DNA from: an uncultured Pelagibacteraceae bacterium
Lineage (GTDB): Bacteria; Pseudomonadota; Alphaproteobacteria; Pelagibacterales; Pelagibacteraceae
Reading direction: 5' to 3'
Assembly: GCA_902612605.1 (NCBI GenBank)
Contig: CACMDY010000001.1
Span: 372,001-436,000, forward strand
DNA: 64,000 nucleotides
Position numbers and translations under genes: made by a program. Shown piece after piece: positions 10,192 to 61,868 of the stretch (position 1 is the stretch's first letter; each line of letters starts with the position of its first letter). A model generated the notes under the pieces. That model ran no database searches. It had not been told where the DNA came from and saw only the letters and a program-made list of their open reading frames with translations.

Positions 10192-11091
10192 ATGTCCAAA
10201 ACTACATCGCTAATATGCGCTTTGATAACAACATTTATTTGGGGCACTGCTTTCATTGCTCAAGACACAGGCATGGACAATATTGGTCCATTAACGTTCA
10301 ATGCATCTAGATTTTTTGTTGGTTTTCTTACAGTCCTACCCATTGCTTTAATTTTAGAAAGAAAAAAAATTAATTATGAAATCAATTCTAATAAAAAATT
10401 ATTTTTAAAATATTTATTTTTAATGGGCATATCATTATTTTTAGGCACTTACTTGCAGCAAGCCGCATTACAATACACGAATATAGCTAATGCAGCTTTT
10501 TTCACAGTTTTTTATGTTCCATTAGTTCCAATTTTACTATTTTTTATTTATTCTATTAAAGTCCATTGGAGTCTTTGGCCTTCAATAGGTTTATGTATAA
10601 TAGGTGTTTACCTATTAAGTGATTTTTCAAACTCAGAAATTATGATAGGTGATGCTTTAGTTATTCTATGCTCACTATTTTGGGCTTTACATATAATTTT
10701 CGCTGGAAAATTTATGGAGAAATTTAATATACCAATTTTTTATGCAGCATTACAAGCAGCTCTTGTTTTTGGTTTATCTCTTATATTTGCTTTTATTTTA
10801 GAGGAAGTAGTTATTACAAAAATTTTAACTGAGTATAGTTCAATATTATATGCAGGCGTCTTATCTGGAGGAATTGCTTTTACTTTACAAATGTTTGCAC
10901 AAAAAAATATTGAAGAAGCTCCAGCAGCAATAATTTACTCTCTTGAAGGTGTCTTTGCAACAATTGCTGGATGGATTATTTTAAGTCAAGTTCTTAACAT
11001 AAATAATATTATAGGATGTGTATTAATTCTTATTGCTGTAATATTTTCTCAAATTGCTCCAACGTCCAAAAAATCACAAGTAAATAATTGA
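10192..11091 (+). CDS. EamA/DMT-family transporter
   Basis: Inner-membrane protein with ten hydrophobic helices in two five-helix EamA repeats (299 aa, standard). Repeat marks are visible: TTFIWGTAFIAQDTGMDNIGPLTFNASRF in the first half, and LCSLFWALHIIFAGKF and SLEGVFATIAGWIILSQ in the second. DMT proteins mostly export amino acids or other small metabolites; the ligand is unknown. It follows the dioxygenase by 14 nt and probably ends the aceE transcript; its 3' end overlaps the convergent uppP gene by 18 nt. Confidence 0.88.
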   Translation: MSKTTSLICALITTFIWGTAFIAQDTGMDNIGPLTFNASRFFVGFLTVLPIALILERKKINYEINSNKKLFLKYLFLMGISLFLGTYLQQAALQYTNIANAAFFTVFYVPLVPILLFFIYSIKVHWSLWPSIGLCIIGVYLLSDFSNSEIMIGDALVILCSLFWALHIIFAGKFMEKFNIPIFYAALQAALVFGLSLIFAFILEEVVITKILTEYSSILYAGVLSGGIAFTLQMFAQKNIEEAPAAIIYSLEGVFATIAGWIILSQVLNINNIIGCVLILIAVIFSQIAPTSKKSQVNN

Positions 11092-11841
11092 AAAAAGAAT
11101 AATACTTAAAACTATTCTATAAATAACAAAAAAACTCAAACTAAACATTTTAACATAAATAAGAAAATATTTAATTGTAAAATAAGAAAATAAAAATGAA
11201 GCTGAAGTAGAAAAAATAAATATAGCATCAAAATTTATTTGATCATCAATAACATCTTTAAATCCCAAAACACTTGCACCTGCTAAAGCTGGAATAGACA
11301 AATAAAAAGCTATTTTTGATGATTCAACTCTGTCAAATTTTAAAAATCTTGAAGCTGTAATTACTATACCTGATCTACTGACTCCTGGAATAATAGCTAA
11401 AATCTGAAATAACCCTATTATAATAATACTTTTAATATTTAATTCTGAAGAAATTTTATTTTTCAATTCAAACTTATCTGAAAAGTATAATAAAATTCCA
11501 AAAATCATAGTTGTCCAAGCGACAACTTTTAAGTTTCTAAATTGATCAATTAAATTTGTGGAGTAAAAAATATAACCAACAATAACTAATGGTATAGACC
11601 CAAGAATTATTAGTAGAAATATATTTTTATTATTAATGATATTTATTAACTCTTTTCTAAAAAATAAAATAATTGCTAACAAAGAACCTAAATGCAGACT
11701 AATATCTAATTGTAGGTTGTTAACATTGAAGTCACTCAATCTTGATATAATTAAAAGATGTGCAGACGAGCTAACTGGAATAAACTCAGATATTCCTTGA
11801 ATAATTGATAAAATTAGCGTCTCTACATATTTTGAAATCAT
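11074..11841 (-). CDS. uppP: Undecaprenyl-diphosphatase (BacA/UppP)
   Basis: Membrane phosphatase recycling undecaprenyl diphosphate to the monophosphate lipid carrier for peptidoglycan and surface polysaccharides. The two family motifs are present: EFIPVSSSAHL near the N terminus and IPGVSRSG in the middle, with several transmembrane helices between and after. I start at the internal Met (MISKYVETL) at 11841 and not at the ORF-track start 11904, because family proteins begin just before the SIIQGISEFIP segment; this gives 255 aa, close to the usual 260-270. It is divergent from gltD. Confidence 0.92.
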   Translation of the reverse strand: MISKYVETLILSIIQGISEFIPVSSSAHLLIISRLSDFNVNNLQLDISLHLGSLLAIILFFRKELINIINNKNIFLLIILGSIPLVIVGYIFYSTNLIDQFRNLKVVAWTTMIFGILLYFSDKFELKNKISSELNIKSIIIIGLFQILAIIPGVSRSGIVITASRFLKFDRVESSKIAFYLSIPALAGASVLGFKDVIDDQINFDAIFIFSTSASFLFSYFTIKYFLIYVKMFSLSFFVIYRIVLSIILFSIIYL

Positions 11842-11945
11842 TAGATCCAATACTTCATAATGAAATTGTAACCAAATTAAAGCAATTACATATTTGCATA
11901 TCATCTATGCATAATAAGAAAAAACCGCTGATTTATTTAAGTTTT

Positions 11946-11971
11946 GTCAAATATTAGTCAATATTTATGAC
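11946..11971. promoter_or_regulatory. Imperfect dyad in the uppP-gltD intergenic region
   Basis: GTCA-AATATT-AGTC-AATATT-TATGAC forms an inverted repeat (arms GTCAAATATT and AATATTTATGAC, two-base bulge) about 50 nt upstream of the gltD start. It also contains the direct repeat GTCAA(A)TATT. It could be an operator for the nitrogen-assimilation operon or a chance AT-rich dyad; no regulator is assigned. Confidence 0.25.
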
Positions 11972-12019
11972 CTTGTAATTGTTTATTATTAAATTTTTAT
12001 CGTATATACAGCGTCCACC

Positions 12020-13453
12020 ATGTCAGAAAAAATGCTTAAGTTTGTTGATATAGGTCAACAAAATCCACCTAAAAGAGATATATCAGACCGAAAAGAGGAT
12101 TTTGAGGAAATATATCAAGAATTTCTAAAAGATAGAGCTGTTCAGCAGTCAAGCAGATGTTCCCAATGTGGAGTACCATTTTGCCAAGTTCATTGTCCAT
12201 TAAGTAACAATATACCAGATTGGCTTAAACTAACTGCTGAGGGAAGATACGAGGAAGCTTATCAATTATCACAAAGCACAAACAACATGCCAGAAGTTTG
12301 TGGAAGAATTTGCCCCCAGGATAGGCTGTGTGAAGGAAATTGTGTAATAGAGCAATCGGGTCATGGAACAGTAACTATTGGATCAATAGAAAAATATATC
12401 ACAGAGAAAGCTTGGGAAAATGGTTGGGTTAAACCAATAGAAATAAATAGTGAAAAAAACGAGAGTGTAGGAATTATAGGTTCTGGTCCTGCTGGACTTG
12501 CTTGTGGAGAACAACTCAGAAAAAAAGGATACAAGGTAACTATATATGATCGTTACGACAGAGCTGGAGGGCTACTAATATATGGTATCCCAGGATTTAA
12601 ATTAGAAAAGCATGTTGTTCAAAGAAGAATAAAACTTTTGGAAGAAAGCGGAATAAAATTTGTCTTAAACTTTGAAGTTGGAAAAGATTCCAGCTTGATG
12701 GAGTTAAGAGAAAAACATGATGCAATTTTAATAGCTACAGGAGTTTATAAAGCTAGAGAAGTTAATCTACCTGGTAACGATTTGAGTAATATTTTCCCTG
12801 CAATGGAGTTTTTGACAGCATCAAATAAAAAAGGACTAGGTGATAAAGTTGAGTTGTTTGATAACGGAACTTTAAATGCTGAAGGCAAAGATGTTGTAGT
12901 AATTGGAGGTGGCGATACAGCGATGGACTGCTTAAGGACTTCAGTGAGACAGAATGCTAAATCTGTAAAATGTTTGTATAGAAGAGATAGAGAAAATATG
13001 CCAGGATCAGCAAGAGAAGTTGGCAATGCAGAAGAAGAAGGTGTTGAATTTATTTGGTTAACAAGCCCTAAAGAGTTTAAGGGAACAAATAAAATTGAAA
13101 GTGTAGTTGTTAATAAAATGAAATTGGGTGAGCCAGATGATAGCGGTAGAAGAAAACCAGTTGTTGAAGAAAACTCAGATTTTGAAATTAAAGCTGATCT
13201 TGTAATCAAAGCACTTGGATTTGATCCAGAAGATCTTCCAAAATTATTTAATGAAGAAAAATTACAAGTATCAAGATGGGGAACAATAAAAGCAGATTTT
13301 GATACAATGGAAACTAGTATAGAGGGAGTTTTTGCAGCCGGAGATATAGTTCGTGGAGCATCTTTAGTGGTTTGGGGTATCAAAGACGGAAGAGATGCCG
13401 CAACATCAATTGATAATTATTTACAAAGTAAACAAAAACTTAGAGTTGCTTAA
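12020..13453 (+). CDS. gltD: Glutamate synthase (NADPH) small subunit
   Basis: Beta subunit of GOGAT; it passes electrons from NADPH through FAD and low-potential 4Fe-4S clusters to the large subunit. The N-terminal cluster domain shows CSQCGVPFCQVHC and CGRICPQDRLCEGNC. FAD binding is at GIIGSGPAGLACGEQL and NADPH binding at VVIGGGDTAMDCLRT; the C-terminal FAD segment GVFAAGDIVRGASLVVWGI is intact. Length 477 aa is standard. Order is gltD then gltB with a TAATG overlap, so the subunits are translated together. An imperfect dyad lies upstream. Confidence 0.96.
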   Translation: MSEKMLKFVDIGQQNPPKRDISDRKEDFEEIYQEFLKDRAVQQSSRCSQCGVPFCQVHCPLSNNIPDWLKLTAEGRYEEAYQLSQSTNNMPEVCGRICPQDRLCEGNCVIEQSGHGTVTIGSIEKYITEKAWENGWVKPIEINSEKNESVGIIGSGPAGLACGEQLRKKGYKVTIYDRYDRAGGLLIYGIPGFKLEKHVVQRRIKLLEESGIKFVLNFEVGKDSSLMELREKHDAILIATGVYKAREVNLPGNDLSNIFPAMEFLTASNKKGLGDKVELFDNGTLNAEGKDVVVIGGGDTAMDCLRTSVRQNAKSVKCLYRRDRENMPGSAREVGNAEEEGVEFIWLTSPKEFKGTNKIESVVVNKMKLGEPDDSGRRKPVVEENSDFEIKADLVIKALGFDPEDLPKLFNEEKLQVSRWGTIKADFDTMETSIEGVFAAGDIVRGASLVVWGIKDGRDAATSIDNYLQSKQKLRVA

Positions 13454-16400
13454 TGAAGTTAAGAAATAAAAATTTAAAAATTTTAAAAAGTAACCATGTT
13501 TACTCGGAAGAAATGGAACATGATGCATGTGGTGTAGGTTTAGTAGCATCCACCGAAGGCCTAAAATCAAGAAAAGTCGTAGAATATGGAATCGATGCCT
13601 TAAAAGCTGTTTGGCATAGGGGTGCAATCGATGCAGACGGAAAAACTGGAGATGGTGCTGGAATCCATATTGAAATTCCCAAAGATTTCTTTGAGGAAAA
13701 AATTGAAGTCACTGGTCATAAACATGATAATTCTGAACTATGTGTGGGTATGATTTTCTTACCAAGAAATGATTATAGCGCTCAAGAGCAATGTAGAACT
13801 ATTGTTGAAAGTGAACTAACAAAGAGAAATTTTAGTATCTATGGTTGGAGACAAGTTCCTGTTGATCCCTCTGTCTTAGGAGAAAAAGCTGAACAAACAA
13901 GACCTGAAATTACTCAAGTATTGTTCACATACAATGACAAAAAAGTTGTCAATAAATCTCTGGAACAAAAATTGTATGAAACTAGAAGAGTAATTGAAAA
14001 AGAAGCTCTCAATAATCAATTAAATAATTTTTATATATGTTCATTTAGTTCTAAATCTATCATTTACAAAGGAATGTTTTTAGCAGAAGCTTTGTCAGAT
14101 TTTTATACTGACTTGAAAGATGAAAGATTTATATCTAGGTATGCAATATTTCACCAAAGATTTTCAACTAATACTGCGCCAAGTTGGGACTTAGCTCAAC
14201 CATTTAGATCTATAGCGCATAATGGTGAAATAAATACTCTTAAAGGAAATGTTAATTGGATGAAGGTTCACGAAGAAGAGATGTTTAGTCCAGTTTTCGA
14301 AGATATAGAGAATCTTAAGCCTGTAATACCAGCTGGCAATTCTGACTCTGCATCATTAGATAATGTTTTTGAGTTATTAAATATTTCTGGACAGCCTGCT
14401 CCTCTAGCAAAATTAATGTTAATACCAGACGCTTGGTCAAAAAAAAATAAGGTATTAAAAAAAGATCATCAACAACTATTCAATTTTTTAAATAGTACCA
14501 TGGAGCCTTGGGATGGGCCAGCTGCTATAGCTGCAACTGATAATGAATGGGTAATTGTTGCAACTGACAGAAATGGATTAAGACCACTTAGATATACAGT
14601 GACAAGAGACAAACTTCTTTTTGCAGGAAGTGAAACAGGAATGATAGATTTAAATGAGAAAAAAATTGTATCTAAAGGAAGATTAGGACCTGGAGAAATA
14701 TTAGGAGTAAGAATAGAAAAAGGCAAAGTATATTCAAACGATGAAATAAAAAACTACCTTTCAAAAGAATATAAACATTACAACAATCAGATTATTGATC
14801 TTGATAAAAAATTAGAGGCAGAAACTGAAAAAGTAGAGCTGGAAGGCCAAAGTTTGAGGAATTTTCAACATTGTTTTGGATATAGCATAGAAGATTTAGA
14901 ATTAATTCTTCATCCAATGGCAGAAGATGCTAAAGAAGCAACAGGCTCAATGGGTGATGATACGCCTTTAGCAGTTTTATCTGACAAATATAGACCATTA
15001 TATCATTACTTTAGACAAAACTTTAGTCAGGTTACAAATCCACCAATTGACTCTCTAAGAGAAAATAAAGTTATGAGTTTAAAGACAAGATTTGGAAATC
15101 TTGGTAATATTTTAGATTTTAGTAAATTAACTAAAGACAATATTTATGTCTTAAATAGTCCGATATTATCAAATGCACAATTTGAAAAATTTTTAAAATT
15201 CTTTGGAAATAATAATAAAGTTTTAGATTGTACATTCAGCAAAGATGATGATTTAGAGACATCAATAAATTTACTCAAAGTTAAATCTGAACAAGCTGTT
15301 AGAGAGGGAATTAAACAAATAATATTATCAGATAAAAATATTTCAGAAAATATAATGCCAATGCCGATGCTTTTATGTATAGGGGCAATAAATACACATT
15401 TAGTTAAATTAGGTTTGAGAGGTTATGTTTCTATTAATGTTCAAACTGGAGATGCTTTAGATACTCACTCTTTTGCAACATTAATTGGTGTTGGTGCTAC
15501 TACAGTGAACCCTTATTTAGCTTTTGATAGCTTATATCAAAGACATTCTAAGAAATTATTTGGAAATTTCACTTTTGATGAATGTGTTTCAAGATATATT
15601 AAATCAGTCAATCTCGGTCTTCTTAAAATAATGTCTAAAATGGGAATTTCTGTTTTAAGTTCTTATAGAGGCGGATGTAATTTTGAAACTGTGGGACTAA
15701 GCAGAACAATTGTGAAAGATTACTTTCCTGGGATGTTATCAAAGATTTCTGGAATTGGTTTAAAAGGAATAGAAAAGAAAATCAGAACTATACACAAAGA
15801 AGCATTTTTCAATAATTCAAATATTTTACCTATTGGAGGTATTTACAGATATAGAAAAAATGGTGAAACACATCAGTATCAAGGCAAACTTATTCATTTA
15901 CTGCAAACTGCGGTTGGACAAGGATCTTATGAAATATATAAAAAATACATTAAAGGTATTTATAATCTAAATCCAATAAGTTTAAGAGATTTAGTAGATT
16001 TTAAATCTAAAAATCCCATCGATATATCTAATGTTGAGCCTGCATCTAATATATTAAAAAGATTTGGAAGTGGAAGTATGTCTCATGGAGCTTTATCTAA
16101 AGAAGCACATGAAACTCTTGCTGTTGGTATGAACAGAATTAAAGGCGCATCTTGTAGTGGTGAAGGTGGAGAAGATGAAAATAGATTTAAGATTATGGAG
16201 AATGGAGATAGTGCAAATTCAAGGGTTAAACAAATTGCATCAGCTAGATTTGGAGTAACCATTAATTATTTAAATAATTGTAATGAGATTGAAATCAAAA
16301 TTGCACAGGGTGCTAAACCAGGTGAAGGTGGACAATTACCAGGTTTTAAAGTTACGGATGAAATTGCGAGATTGAGACACTCAACGCCAGGAGTTACTTT

Positions 16401-56378: not shown

Positions 56379-57408
56379 AAATATTTTAAAAGTAATTAAG
56401 TCAAACGGATATAAATATATTGATCTTGATACAGTTATTGACACCAATTTAATATTGGAAAGGTCGGGAGAAAATTTCAAAAGATTTATATTTTCTTTTA
56501 ATGATCAATTGGGAAATGAAATTTGTTTAAGACCTGATTTAACTATTGCATCTTGTGTGAGATATTTGAATCAAAATAAGAAAACTAGTGAAAAAATTTT
56601 TTATAGTGGTCAAGCATTTAGGAAAGGATTAAATAAAAAAGACTCTGTTATCAGAAATCAAATTGGATTTGAAATATTTGGATCTTTTGCTGAAAAAAAA
56701 GATGATAAAAAAATAATAGAAACTTCACTTAAAGCATTATCAAAAGTTAAATATAAAAGTGGAAATTTAGTAATAGGTAACATAGAAATTTTTAGGCTTT
56801 TGTTAGATAAATTGGATTGCCCATTAAGATGGAAATTAAGATTACAACGTCATTTTTGGAGAGAAAAATATTTTAATGATTTATTAAAAAGATTGGAGAC
56901 CAACTCTGATATCGACCCAACAATTGTCGAAATAGATAAAAAAAAATATTCTAAAATGATTAATGAAACTCAAAAAAAAGAAGTTGCTGGAAGATCAATA
57001 GAAGAAATATTATCAAGATTTGATAGTAAAATTAAAGATCCAAGAAGAACAAAAAAAGGTAGTAATGTTGTAAAAATTTTAAAAGAGTACTTAAAAATTG
57101 AATGTCCTATTAATCAAGCATCAAAAAAGTTAAATTTATTTTTTAAAAAAAATAAAATTAATCTTAGAGTTCAGGATGATTATTTCCCAATAACTAAAAA
57201 TAAAATTAATAAATTAAATGTTAGATTTAATTCTTCTTTTGGAAGACATCTCGAATATTATACTGGTTTGGTATTCAAGATCGATATTAAATCAAAGTCT
57301 GAGAAGTTAAATATTAGAGGTGGTAGATACGATTCTTTAATTAAAGATCTTGGCTTTAAAAAAAATATACCAGCTGTTGGAGCAGCTATTAACTTAGAGA
57401 AATTATGA
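56356..57408 (+). CDS. hisZ: ATP phosphoribosyltransferase regulatory subunit
   Basis: HisRS paralogue lacking aminoacylation ability; it forms a hetero-octamer with short-form HisG and is needed for activity and histidine feedback. 350 aa from the ATG at 56356, with AGGAG about 10 nt upstream (the track's TTG at 56353 is one codon earlier). The class II fold is visible in LRPDLTIASCVRYL, KIFYSGQAFRKG, QIGFEIFGS, GRHLEYYTGLVFKID and RGGRYDSLIKDLG. Lies between hisS and hisG with overlaps at both ends. Confidence 0.92.
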   Translation: MKSKNLSENILKVIKSNGYKYIDLDTVIDTNLILERSGENFKRFIFSFNDQLGNEICLRPDLTIASCVRYLNQNKKTSEKIFYSGQAFRKGLNKKDSVIRNQIGFEIFGSFAEKKDDKKIIETSLKALSKVKYKSGNLVIGNIEIFRLLLDKLDCPLRWKLRLQRHFWREKYFNDLLKRLETNSDIDPTIVEIDKKKYSKMINETQKKEVAGRSIEEILSRFDSKIKDPRRTKKGSNVVKILKEYLKIECPINQASKKLNLFFKKNKINLRVQDDYFPITKNKINKLNVRFNSSFGRHLEYYTGLVFKIDIKSKSEKLNIRGGRYDSLIKDLGFKKNIPAVGAAINLEKL

Positions 57409-58088
57409 GTGATGGTATCTTAAAAATTGGAATTCCAAGTAAGGGACGTTTACGATCGGGAGTTTTAAATATTTTTAAAAGAAAAAAATTAAAAATTCTT
57501 TCTGAAAGAGGTGAGAGAGACTTATTTGGATTTATTAGAGGAGAAAAAAATATTATTATTAATTATCTGCATGCTAGAGAAATAATAGAACGTCTTGCGG
57601 ATGGATCTTTAGATATTGGCTTTTCTGGATATGATTTATTAATGGAAAGCGAAATTAACATTCAAAAAAAAGTGATTGTAAAAAAAAAGTACGATTTTGG
57701 AGAAGCTACATTAGTAGTTGCAATCCCGGATGATTGGATAGATGTACAGACAATGCCTGATCTTGAAGAAATAGCTTTTGAATTTAAAGAAAAAAAAAGA
57801 AATAGATTACGTATAGCTACAAAATACCCAAATTTAACAAGAGATTTTATGTTCTCCAGAGGAGTTACTCAATTTAAATTGGTGAAGAGCCTTGGTGCAA
57901 CAGAAATATATCCATTTACTGGATCATCTGAGATAATAACAGATATAACTTCAACCGGAGCAACTTTAAAAGCTAATAAATTAAGGATATTAAAAGATGG
58001 AATGATTCTTAATTCTCAGGCTTGTTTAATGACATCAAAAAAAAGTAGAGAGATAAAAAATCTTAAAAGAGTTTTAAATAAACTTTAA
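57405..58088 (+). CDS. hisG: ATP phosphoribosyltransferase, short form
   Basis: First step of histidine synthesis. 227 aa, the short HisGs type without the C-terminal regulatory domain, consistent with hisZ next to it. Motifs: LKIGIPSKGRLRSG, DLFGFIRGEKNIIINYLHAREIIERLADGSLDIGFSGYDLL, RIATKYPNLTRDF and ATEIYPFTGSSEIITDITSTGATLKANKL (PRPP loop). ATGA overlap with hisZ. Control by leader-peptide attenuation is possible if it is read from the hisS promoter. Confidence 0.95.
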   Translation: MSDGILKIGIPSKGRLRSGVLNIFKRKKLKILSERGERDLFGFIRGEKNIIINYLHAREIIERLADGSLDIGFSGYDLLMESEINIQKKVIVKKKYDFGEATLVVAIPDDWIDVQTMPDLEEIAFEFKEKKRNRLRIATKYPNLTRDFMFSRGVTQFKLVKSLGATEIYPFTGSSEIITDITSTGATLKANKLRILKDGMILNSQACLMTSKKSREIKNLKRVLNKL

Positions 58089-58118
58089 ATATCATTAAGT
58101 AAGTGTAACATACGAATC

Positions 58119-59216
58119 ATGGATACAATTTTAGTTATTATTTTAGCTTTAATATTGATTGCTACTTCGGCTATCCTTTATTTAAATATTAAGTCGAATG
58201 TAATAAAAGAAGATACAAATAAAGAAGCTGACGAAATTGCAAAATTAAACGCAGAAATAGTTAAATTAAAAGATAGTTTAAATACTACTATTAATTCTTC
58301 TTTAAATTCCATGTCTACGTCATTTAATAATCTTTCAACTGGCGTTACAAAAGACATGACAGCAGCTCTGACAAAAGTTGATGAAAAAGTTGCAGCTTTT
58401 AATTCCCAAGTTGAAAATTTAAACGAAAGTCAAAAAGGTATTAATAAAATCTTAGCTGGAGTTAAAAAGTATGGAACTTTAGCAGAGTTCAGTCTGGGCT
58501 CGCTCATTAAGGATTTGCTGCCTTCTTCGCAATACCTTTCAAATGTTAAAATGAAGGAGGAAACTAGTGAAAACGTTGAATTTGCAATTAAACTCCAAGA
58601 AGGTGTATTGGTTCCGGTTGATAGCCATTTTCCTGTTGAGAGATTTAAAGCTATTCAAGATGCTCATCAAGAGGACGATAAAAAAGCTATTGCGGATGCA
58701 AGAACTAAACTTGCAAAAGCCTTCAAAGAAAAAGCCAAGAGTGTAAATGAAAAATATATTGTTCCACCTAAAACTACTGATTTTGCAATTGTATATGCGC
58801 CAACTGAGAGTTTGTTTTTAGAGATAGCTAATTACCAAGACCCAAATACTAAAGAATTATTGAGCCAAGAATTAATGAAAAAATATAAAGTAACTGTTAT
58901 GGGACCAAATAATTTATCTGGGTATTTACAATCATTACACATGGGTTTTCAAACTTTAAAAGTTCAAAAACATGCAACAGAAATTTACGATCATTTAAAA
59001 ACAATAAGCACAAGATTTACAAAACATTTTGATGGAATTGTTAATCTCAGAAAAAAATTAGAAGAGGCAATGACAGCTGTTGATAAATTTGGAACGGATG
59101 CAAGATCTATTAAAAGAACATTAGAAAATATAAAAGATCCAGAGCAAATTGAAAAGGCTATTGAAACAGAAAATGTCAAAAAATTTGAAGATATTCCAAG
59201 ACAAGTAAAAAATTAA
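58119..59216 (+). CDS. rmuC: RmuC-like DNA recombination protein
   Basis: 365 aa. N-terminal helix (3-23) anchors the protein, followed by a coiled coil (about 35-110) and an RmuC domain: LAEFSLGSLIKDLLPSSQYLSNV, VEFAIKLQEGVLVPVDSHFPVERF and VNEKYIVPPKTTDFAIVYAPTESLFLEIA. RmuC proteins are predicted PD-(D/E)XK-fold nuclease-related factors limiting inversions. Starts 30 nt after hisG. Followed by two further exonuclease-type genes on the same strand, suggesting a DNA-processing group. Confidence 0.88.
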   Translation: MDTILVIILALILIATSAILYLNIKSNVIKEDTNKEADEIAKLNAEIVKLKDSLNTTINSSLNSMSTSFNNLSTGVTKDMTAALTKVDEKVAAFNSQVENLNESQKGINKILAGVKKYGTLAEFSLGSLIKDLLPSSQYLSNVKMKEETSENVEFAIKLQEGVLVPVDSHFPVERFKAIQDAHQEDDKKAIADARTKLAKAFKEKAKSVNEKYIVPPKTTDFAIVYAPTESLFLEIANYQDPNTKELLSQELMKKYKVTVMGPNNLSGYLQSLHMGFQTLKVQKHATEIYDHLKTISTRFTKHFDGIVNLRKKLEEAMTAVDKFGTDARSIKRTLENIKDPEQIEKAIETENVKKFEDIPRQVKN

Positions 59217-59237
59217 TTTAATTCTAAAAAAAAAATA

Positions 59238-59924
59238 ATGAAGTGGAATAATAAATTTAATTATCCCAAGTCTTCAAGATCAATTGAAGATGGATACAGA
59301 AAATATTTATTAGGGGAGAACAAACTACCAAGTGTCACTACAATTCTAGGCGCCACAAAATCAGAAGAAGAGAAGGCTGCTCTTGCAAATTGGAAAGAGA
59401 GAGTAGGAATTAAGGAAGCAAATAGAATTAAAACTGAAGCTTCATCAAGGGGTACTTCTATGCACTCTTATATTGAGGACTACTTAAGAGGGAGAATTAA
59501 TGAGAGTTTTTTTGAGAGTAATGAGCAATACAAAAATATGGCTAAAGAAATTATTCAAAAAGGAATTATTGGAAGACTTAATGAAGTATATGGCATGGAA
59601 GAAACATTATACTATCCAGATCAATATGCCGGTACAGCTGATATGATAGCAGTTTATGAAGGTAGAGATGTTATTGTGGATTTTAAACAAGCTAATAAAC
59701 CAAAAAAAATAGATTATATACAAGACTACTTTTTACAATTAGGAGCTTATACTTTAGCTCATGATGTTGTTCACAGAACTAAGATGAAAGCAGGAATAAT
59801 ATTATTATGCACTAAAGACATTTTATTCCAAGAATTTAAAATTGAGGGAGCTGAATTAGAAATGTATCAAAATTTATTTTTAGGAAGGGTTAAAAAGTTT
59901 TACGAGTTGAATAATATATCTTGA
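59238..59924 (+). CDS. PD-(D/E)XK exonuclease, MGME1-like
   Basis: 228 aa nuclease of the RecB-like PD-(D/E)XK superfamily. Catalytic residues are evident: GTAD (D135), IVDFK (D148, K150), a Gln-Tyr helix QLGAYTLA and a preceding GTSMHSYIEDYL (H76). Region 31-57, PSVTTILGATKSEEEKAALANWKERVG, closely recalls the start of human mitochondrial MGME1 (PSVTRILQQT and a following ERWKQRM), and the order of motifs is the same; similar nucleases occur in phages. Likely acts on single-stranded DNA ends. 21 nt after rmuC and 123 nt before exonuclease I. Origin by phage transfer is an alternative explanation. Confidence 0.8.
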   Translation: MKWNNKFNYPKSSRSIEDGYRKYLLGENKLPSVTTILGATKSEEEKAALANWKERVGIKEANRIKTEASSRGTSMHSYIEDYLRGRINESFFESNEQYKNMAKEIIQKGIIGRLNEVYGMEETLYYPDQYAGTADMIAVYEGRDVIVDFKQANKPKKIDYIQDYFLQLGAYTLAHDVVHRTKMKAGIILLCTKDILFQEFKIEGAELEMYQNLFLGRVKKFYELNNIS

Positions 59925-60047
59925 CTTTACTTAGCCTATCCATAAAAGAGTTACTAACACCGGAGCTAATCGTTTATATGCTAATGGTTAAGTCTTTAAA
60001 AAACTTTCCAAAAATCCATTAAATATTAGCTAGTTTGAGAATAAATT

Positions 60048-61481
60048 ATGAATTTAGCAATTTGGGATATAGAATCATCTAGTGCAAGCACAGATTTTGG
60101 AAGTATTATTGAAATAGGCGGTATTTTAGTTGACGAGAATTTTAAAGAAAAAGACAGATTTAATTTAAGGTGTAGTTTACCTGAAGGGGAGGTCTTTCAG
60201 GCTATGGCACTTATTGTAAATAAGACATCAATAAAACAATTAACTCAAACTAATCTTTCTCATTATCAAATGTTAGGAGAAGTTGAGAAAATATTTAAAA
60301 AGTGGAGTCCAGCAGTGTTTCTTGGTTGGTCTAATATTGGATTTGATGATGAAATGATAAGAAAAGAGTTTTTTAAAGGGATTAGATATCCATATTTAAC
60401 GAACTCTGCTCCAAATAAAAGACATGATGGTATTAATATTGCTCGTGCAGCTTATGCAATTGATCCCTCAATTTTAGAAGTAGAATTTAATGAAAAAAAT
60501 AATGCAGTGTTTAAATTAGAGTCATTAGCAAGAATGCAAGGTATTGACTCAACAGATGCCCATAGTGCTTTAAGTGATAGTATTATGACTGCTAAAGTTT
60601 TAAATATTGTCAAAAAAAAACAGCCAGAGACTTGGGAGTCTTTTTTTAAAACTGCAAATAAATCAGATACTGAAACTATAATTAAAAAAGGGGAAATTAT
60701 TACCTTAAATGAATATTATTATGGTAAATCTAGACTTCATCTAGTTGCTCCTCTTCATCAAAAATATTGTATGCATCCAATATATGCGGGTTGGTATTAT
60801 GCATTCGACTTAAGGATTGATATAGAACCTTTATTAAATTTATCGATAAATGAGCTTAAAGTTGAAATGAAAAAGTCTCCTAAATTTTTAAGAACTATTA
60901 GATCTAACAAGGCTCCAATTATTGTAGATGCAAAGTTTGGTATGCAAGCAGAACCTTATAGCGCCATGGATAAGTCTTTAATTAATAAACGGGCAGGTAT
61001 TGTTAAAAATAATGAGAAATTTTCTCAAAATATACTTCATGCATTAAGAGAAGTGGCTGAAGAAAAAGAACAGTCTAAAACACAAGAAGATATATATGCT
61101 GAAGAAAGTATTTATACTAAATTTACATCAAATAAAGATACTGCATTATTTCCTGCTTGGCATGCAGCATCGTGGAAAGATAAACTTAAGTTATTAGATA
61201 AATTTGATGATGATCGTTTAGTAGGTTTTGGAAAAAAAATCATATATCAAGAGGCACCCGAAGTTCTACCCGAGAGCATGCTTAAAACAATAGAACGAGA
61301 AATTGCAAAGCGAATTTTGAGTGAAAAGAAAGAAAAATGGTGGACAATTCCAACGCTCTACACAGAAATTGATACTCTGAGAGAAAAATATACTAATGAG
61401 AATGATAACGAAAAACTATCACTACTAGACGAGTTTAATGAATATGCAATGTCAATACAGAAAAAGTATGAAAATGTTTAA
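60048..61481 (+). CDS. sbcB: Exodeoxyribonuclease I
   Basis: 3'-5' single-strand DNA exonuclease of the DEDDh group. Catalytic residues: D7 and E9 in WDIESSSAS, D100/D101 in NIGFDDEMIRKEF, H172 and D177 in DAHSALSD, spaced as in E. coli ExoI. The SH3-like and C-terminal helical domains follow (LHLVAPLHQKYCMHPIYAGWYYAFDL and LFPAWHAASWKDKLKLLDKFDDDRL). 477 aa, full length. Stands after rmuC and the MGME1-like nuclease. Confidence 0.93.
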   Translation: MNLAIWDIESSSASTDFGSIIEIGGILVDENFKEKDRFNLRCSLPEGEVFQAMALIVNKTSIKQLTQTNLSHYQMLGEVEKIFKKWSPAVFLGWSNIGFDDEMIRKEFFKGIRYPYLTNSAPNKRHDGINIARAAYAIDPSILEVEFNEKNNAVFKLESLARMQGIDSTDAHSALSDSIMTAKVLNIVKKKQPETWESFFKTANKSDTETIIKKGEIITLNEYYYGKSRLHLVAPLHQKYCMHPIYAGWYYAFDLRIDIEPLLNLSINELKVEMKKSPKFLRTIRSNKAPIIVDAKFGMQAEPYSAMDKSLINKRAGIVKNNEKFSQNILHALREVAEEKEQSKTQEDIYAEESIYTKFTSNKDTALFPAWHAASWKDKLKLLDKFDDDRLVGFGKKIIYQEAPEVLPESMLKTIEREIAKRILSEKKEKWWTIPTLYTEIDTLREKYTNENDNEKLSLLDEFNEYAMSIQKKYENV

Positions 61482-61547
61482 TGTGGATAATTTTAACATT
61501 TCTCTTTTAACTATTGATAAAAAAATTTTTATTTATATATAAAGCTA

Positions 61548-61868
61548 ATGGCAACATTAAAAGTTACAGACGAAATATTTGAAGAACAAGTTTTAAAAAA
61601 CGATAAACCTGTTTTAGTAGATTTTTGGGCCGAATGGTGTGGGCCATGTAAAATGGTTGGACCAATTTTAGAGGAAATTTCAGAGGAGATGGCAAATGAT
61701 ATTGTCATCGCAAAACATGACATAGACTCAGAGCCTAACATGCCTACTAAGTATGGTGTTCGTGGAATTCCTACAATGCTTTTATTTAAAGGTGGTGAAT
61801 TAAAAGCAACCAAAGTTGGAGCCACTCCAAAGAGTGACATTGTGGCTTTTATAAAAGAAAATATTTAA
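61548..61868 (+). CDS. trxA: Thioredoxin
   Basis: 106 aa cytoplasmic disulfide reductase. VDFWAEWCGPCKMVGPILEEI contains the WCGPC active site, and RGIPTMLLFKGGELKATKVG the cis-Pro loop. Monocistronic by appearance; overlaps the convergent folC gene by 4 nt. Confidence 0.97.
   Translation: MATLKVTDEIFEEQVLKNDKPVLVDFWAEWCGPCKMVGPILEEISEEMANDIVIAKHDIDSEPNMPTKYGVRGIPTMLLFKGGELKATKVGATPKSDIVAFIKENI

Follow-up and report, generated by a model that had tools for sequence, protein, structure and literature searches.

A phage-type nuclease with MGME1 affinity between rmuC and the exonuclease I gene of Pelagibacter

Introduction

What kind of nuclease is encoded between rmuC and the exonuclease I gene of a SAR11 chromosome, and where did it come from? 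The question is raised by an open reading frame, termed nuc throughout, in the window studied here, i.e. a stretch of 64,000 nucleotides from an uncultured Pelagibacteraceae bacterium. An earlier note on this DNA had likened the gene product to MGME1, the human mitochondrial exonuclease, and had considered the three neighbouring genes as a set retained during genome reduction. Exonuclease I (ExoI), the product of sbcB, is a 3′-5′ single-strand exonuclease. SAR11 bacteria are reported to be devoid of RecBCD as well as of RecF (PMC12374537).

Results

The nuc gene and its neighbours

The nuc gene (59238..59924, + strand) is a real open reading frame with an ATG start that encodes an MGME1/PHROG_298-type PD-(D/E)XK exonuclease of 228 amino acids, and close homologues with 97-99% identity, labelled uncultured Pelagibacteraceae, assign the window to SAR11. 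Upstream lies rmuC of type A (58119..59216, +; 365 amino acids; PF02646, 1e-46), the product of which has a hydrophobic N-terminus reading as a membrane anchor, and downstream sbcB (60048..61481, +; 477 amino acids; PF08411 2.9e-18, RNase_T, PRK11779 1e-41). Thus, the same-strand trio was described correctly, and both neighbours are confirmed by Pfam and NCBIfam. The gene starts 21 bases behind the 3′-end of rmuC and is followed by 123 bases up to the sbcB start; in a comparison with shuffled sequences, neither promoter nor terminator signals stood out. The trio is located in a variable interval bordered by the open reading frames of hisG on the left (57405..58088, +) and of the thioredoxin gene trxA, with its WCGPCK motif, on the right (61548..61868, +).

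Nuc belongs to a phage nuclease family with MGME1 as the nearest solved relative

Searching the PHROGs yielded a nearly full-length match of Nuc to phrog_298, annotated as ‘exonuclease’ (1.5e-49). Human MGME1 is likewise assigned to PHROG_298 (1.8e-23), a link already noted by one phage annotator (Stenotrophomonas phage Moby). Human MGME1 was the only significant solved family among 177,635 PDB sequences (single-sequence E 3e-10, profile E 1e-29); AddA-like helicases reached 0.3 in the PDB sequence search, and RecE was matched neither by the single-sequence nor by the profile search. Pfam returned at threshold the generic PDDEXK_1 alone, and the NCBIfam search assigned no family.

The AlphaFold2 model of Nuc (pLDDT 94.6) points in the same direction. 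The top nine PDB fold matches of this predicted model are all MGME1 (TMq 0.68-0.75, TMt 0.67-0.85, E 1e-11 to 1e-13), followed by DinG and RecE (E ~1e-5, TM 0.40-0.48); SSO0001, AdnA, the Cas4-like ACE1, AddA and lambda exonuclease likewise range far below MGME1. PHROG_298-family phage proteins also match the model structurally. Nuc is therefore predicted to have the MGME1 fold.

Other members of the superfamily were rejected as the identity of Nuc. Cas4 shares the PD-(D/E)XK core, but its matches are weak (0.038 in NCBIfam; Cas4_II at 3.6e-5 in PADLOC, the sole hit of Nuc to any nuclease-specific defence family model), with 13.8 bits compared to the 65-bit cut-off of the cas4 equivalog, TM values of 0.33-0.38 and no CRISPR genes among the ORFs neighbouring nuc. 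RecE (E 1.9e-5, TM 0.48) and lambda exonuclease (TM 0.31-0.35) were dismissed as well. The nuclease domains of AddA, RecB and AdnA have the RecB-type motifs Ia to IV in common with Nuc, whereas their HMM scores do not exceed 26 bits as compared to 105 for MGME1, the TM values are 0.38-0.45, and AddA/RecB nuclease domains are fused to a UvrD-like helicase in proteins of ~1100 amino acids, in contrast to the stand-alone Nuc without a helicase. Taken together, the profile search, a test set beforehand, bears out the suggested MGME1 affinity, with Cas4, RecE and AddA far weaker by sequence and fold: the affinity is genuine, the parent family is the phage family PHROG_298, and MGME1 is its nearest solved relative.

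The catalytic residues of Nuc are invariant

The opening PSVTTIL...NWKERV and the PD-(D/E)XK residues pointed out in the earlier note are present and match human MGME1 position by position in the alignment, P31-S32-V33-T34 of Nuc corresponding to the human P-S-V-T. We followed the MGME1 motifs Ia (His), I (Glu), II (Asp), III (D-x-K) and IV (QhxxY), as defined in PMC6237815, in a residue conservation alignment of 329 copies (150 from SAR11 and 179 from phages); one alignment was too diverse to serve for pattern scans. H76 (motif Ia, codon 59463..59465, +; human H180) and E121 (motif I, 59598..59600, +; human E223) are invariant in 150/150 SAR11 copies, and D135 (motif II, 59640..59642, +; human D238) in addition in 179/179 phage copies. 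Moreover, D and K of D148-F-K150 (motif III, 59679..59687, +; human D251-W-K253) as well as Q and Y of Q167-L-G-A-Y171 (motif IV, 59736..59750, +) are invariant in all 329 copies. Judged by these residues, the catalytic site of Nuc is intact.

The likeness to human MGME1 (5ZYT-5ZYW, 8XA9), which comprises the fold, PSVT and motifs Ia to IV, extends to the first half of the duplex-opening pin, where W52 of Nuc, corresponding to human W152, is invariant. In contrast, the second half, human F173, is replaced by S69 in Nuc and by Ser, Thr or Ala across SAR11 and phages, suggesting that substrate handling by Nuc may differ from that of MGME1. In addition, the two proteins are only ~22% identical, Nuc lacks a mitochondrial targeting sequence and has different host partners, the human arch contains insertions, and the C-terminal E344 of MGME1 lies outside the part aligned with Nuc.

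The gene is under strong purifying selection, with a median dN/dS of 0.043 and a maximum of 0.086 in 40 comparisons with dS < 1.5. Hence, the notion that Nuc is an inactive or regulatory PD-(D/E)XK relative, for which we found no support, is very hard to reconcile with a full set of invariant catalytic residues and a dN/dS of 0.04, and we regard it as highly improbable.

Occurrence in Pelagibacter and in phages

Among the 113 good Pelagibacter genomes, 104 possess a single copy of nuc. Five of the nine exceptions are probably assembly gaps, since hisG and rmuC are missing there as well and sbcB is missing or incomplete; the other four (G022, G671, G685, G723) carry a diverged sbcB. The gene was found neither in the sister genus (G143) nor in the sister family (24 genomes). 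In the alphaproteobacterial class sample the remaining matches are low-scoring AddA-type domains, and in the Pseudomonadota sample only the window's own genome passed 1e-15, with no other chromosomal member in the remaining 298 of the 299 genomes. The best 80 matches in the scan of genome contigs are all from Pelagibacteraceae, cells outside the Pseudomonadota being thinly sampled, and plasmid matches in Thermus and cyanobacteria are weak.

The family is abundant in phages: 982 records match, led by those of pelagiphages and of an Agrobacterium jumbo phage, and on viral contigs at least 594 stretches were confirmed. It extends to jumbo phages and cyanomyoviruses. The phage exonucleases are full-length homologues with motifs identical to those of Nuc, and the pelagiphage copies (HTVC023P gp85, HTVC027P gp27, 023Pt_psg01) show 39-45% identity. 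However, they are located in replication/recombination neighbourhoods, among genes for DNA polymerase A, UvsY, a UvsW-like helicase, gp33/gp59 and RNase H, and not near rmuC or sbcB (0/80 viral contigs, 70 of which carry pelagiphage markers). Two matches in an alphaproteobacterial assembly (G333) were rejected as cellular copies, as they lie on a contig of phage origin that encodes Mtd and ribonucleotide reductase; this nuclease-bearing contig appears twice in the assembly (L272, L273).

Linkage to sbcB and rmuC

The clustering is conserved as well, even where rmuC has been exchanged or lost: in 149/149 loci sbcB adjoins nuc or is separated from it by one rmuC, within 300 bp in 139 and about one gene apart in 10, and on the same strand in 146. 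The type A rmuC of the window is adjacent in 123 of these loci, another type is found in 17, and none was seen in 9. We observed the orders rmuC-nuc-sbcB, nuc-rmuC-sbcB, nuc-sbcB-rmuC and nuc-sbcB without rmuC, as well as convergent nuc and sbcB; apparent oddities in order at two loci (L007, L025) are explained by a second RmuC type between nuc and sbcB. In the sister genus (G143), G037, the sister family f2 and the Pelagibacter genome G685, rmuC is located beside sbcB without nuc. The presence of the pair without nuc in G143, f2 and G685 indicates that it is older than nuc. Linkage alone is no proof of joint work.

Several further genes were noticed around the cluster. In diverged genomes a protein of ~1120 amino acids with RNase_H_2 and AAA_12 helicase domains adjoins rmuC or lies within two genes of it (L408:6820-10179 in G667; L404/L263 in G719, contig 10494-13856; L410:1501-4905 in G723), the domains being assigned by Pfam in G667 and G723 and by a look-alike N-terminus in G719. 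This protein could supply the motor that the cluster lacks, or it could be a further defence protein. A protein of 380-494 amino acids precedes the diverged sbcB at L262:1111-2595, L264:1803-2945 and L297:6154-7494, and two of the three have an S24 peptidase-like, LexA/repressor-like C-terminal part. Finally, two adjacent genes encoding 172-182 amino acids precede rmuC-sbcB in G143 (L301:2532-3582) and nuc-rmuC-sbcB in G012 (L266:6265-7312); the two that were tested gave no Pfam match.

Origin of nuc

The SAR11 copies form one clade (100/99), which groups with viral copies of the pelagiphage type (99/99; 100/98 after removal of long branches) with the other phages outside, and the deeper branches of the tree are all phages or plasmids. 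Nuc is thus probably a domesticated phage nuclease and not an inherited alphaproteobacterial gene, a reading that is preferred because of the taxonomic distribution and not because of a settled tree node. Within the joint clade, SAR11 may be nested in the viral copies or sister to them, since a tree with the viral copies as one clade excluding SAR11 was not rejected (AU p = 0.38). This leaves room for the reverse course, capture of an old cellular Pelagibacter gene by pelagiphages. Yet the deep phage and plasmid branches, the lack of a second chromosomal holder among the 299 Pseudomonadota as well as of nuc in the sister genus and family, and the phage nature of the G333 contig argue against this course, rendering it quite improbable.

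Given that the sister genus and family possess rmuC next to sbcB but no nuc, and that the family is otherwise nearly all phage, nuc looks like a phage addition to an older pair. Consequently, whereas the MGME1 affinity and the clustering with the exonuclease I and rmuC genes hold, the proposal of a retained ancestral set is not supported. The locus had also been expected to bear on the source of MGME1. It does so in that a gene apparently added from phages gives no support to an alphaproteobacterial, i.e. endosymbiont, origin. MGME1 itself could not be placed: it was the single eukaryotic sequence in the tree and formed a long branch, and a clade of SAR11 and MGME1 was neither recovered nor rejected (AU p = 0.23).

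Islands in the hisG-trxA interval

In most genomes the hisG-trxA interval (window 57405-61868) contains the trio alone. Islands of 10-34 kb with restriction and anti-phage genes insert in this interval (L262-L268, L400-L411, L419), and five of the enlarged intervals were inspected. These contain Dnd/Pbe (G012), a methyl-directed REase with DrmB and a Dcm methylase (G719), a Z1 helicase with DUF4420 and a Dcm methylase (G709), MzaB/MzaC with a Dcm methylase (G661), and an insert with a cytosine methyltransferase (G686). In each of these genomes nuc and sbcB, or the whole trio, remain inside the interval; clusters in G012, G709, G719 and G661 that had appeared relocated are accounted for by island insertion and not by moves elsewhere. 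On the basis of these five intervals, we take a defence-island hotspot between hisG and trxA as a lead.

The islands raise the possibility that Nuc, ExoI and RmuC mainly act against foreign DNA, degrading, within a defence region, the single-stranded or broken phage and plasmid DNA that results from restriction and from the action of other cutters. The persistence of nuc and sbcB in all five inspected intervals would fit such a role, as would the RmuC-domain protein ShdA of the Pseudomonas Shield system, an experimentally shown anti-phage DNase (PMC10270631). Like the neighbouring rmuC product, ShdA has its RmuC domain behind a membrane-like N-terminus; the gene partners differ, however. The ExoI of the window also matches the PADLOC model RTasSbcB (4e-63), although any ExoI is expected to do so. 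Moreover, the trio mostly stands without an adjoining defence gene, a near-universal single copy under strong purifying selection suits a housekeeping function better, and co-residence in the hotspot may reflect tolerance to insertions beside the cluster. We therefore consider a mainly defensive role unlikely, while a contribution of Nuc to defence is possible.

Discussion

Neither an AddA match above the cut-off nor a match of AddA or RecB size was found in 19 Pelagibacterales genomes, where the matches were confined to proteins of UvrD size. With moderate confidence, we favour the reading that nuc derives from a phage nuclease of replication/recombination, that it is now a cellular gene maintained by vertical descent, and that its product functions in end-processing alongside ExoI and RmuC. 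An ancestor of the genus would have acquired the gene from a pelagiphage-like virus, and the newcomer would have been placed beside the older rmuC-sbcB pair. Single-stranded DNA ends or flaps may be threaded through an MGME1-like helical arch of Nuc and cut at the two-metal PD-(D/E)XK site, with degradation probably starting from either end. Nuc, ExoI and RmuC would jointly trim single-stranded tails, flaps and intermediates of broken ends and would thereby take over some of the end-processing for which AddAB/RecBCD is missing. The most likely role of Nuc is the trimming of single-stranded ends, alongside ExoI and RmuC, as a substitute for AddAB/RecBCD. The three proteins could accomplish much of this trimming, but full replacement of these enzymes also needs a motor, which Nuc lacks.

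A more far-reaching proposal is that the domesticated phage MGME1-type nuclease, ExoI and RmuC constitute a streamlined module for both end-processing and clearing of foreign DNA, which replaces AddAB/RecBCD as well as RecF and resides at the defence-island hotspot of the genus. We advance this proposal as a speculation that is doubtful at present.

The phage affiliation of nuc weighs against taking the SAR11 copy as a sign that MGME1 arrived with the mitochondrial ancestor. At the same time, the gene provides a cultured bacterial host for a nuclease family whose known members are mostly from phages and mitochondria.
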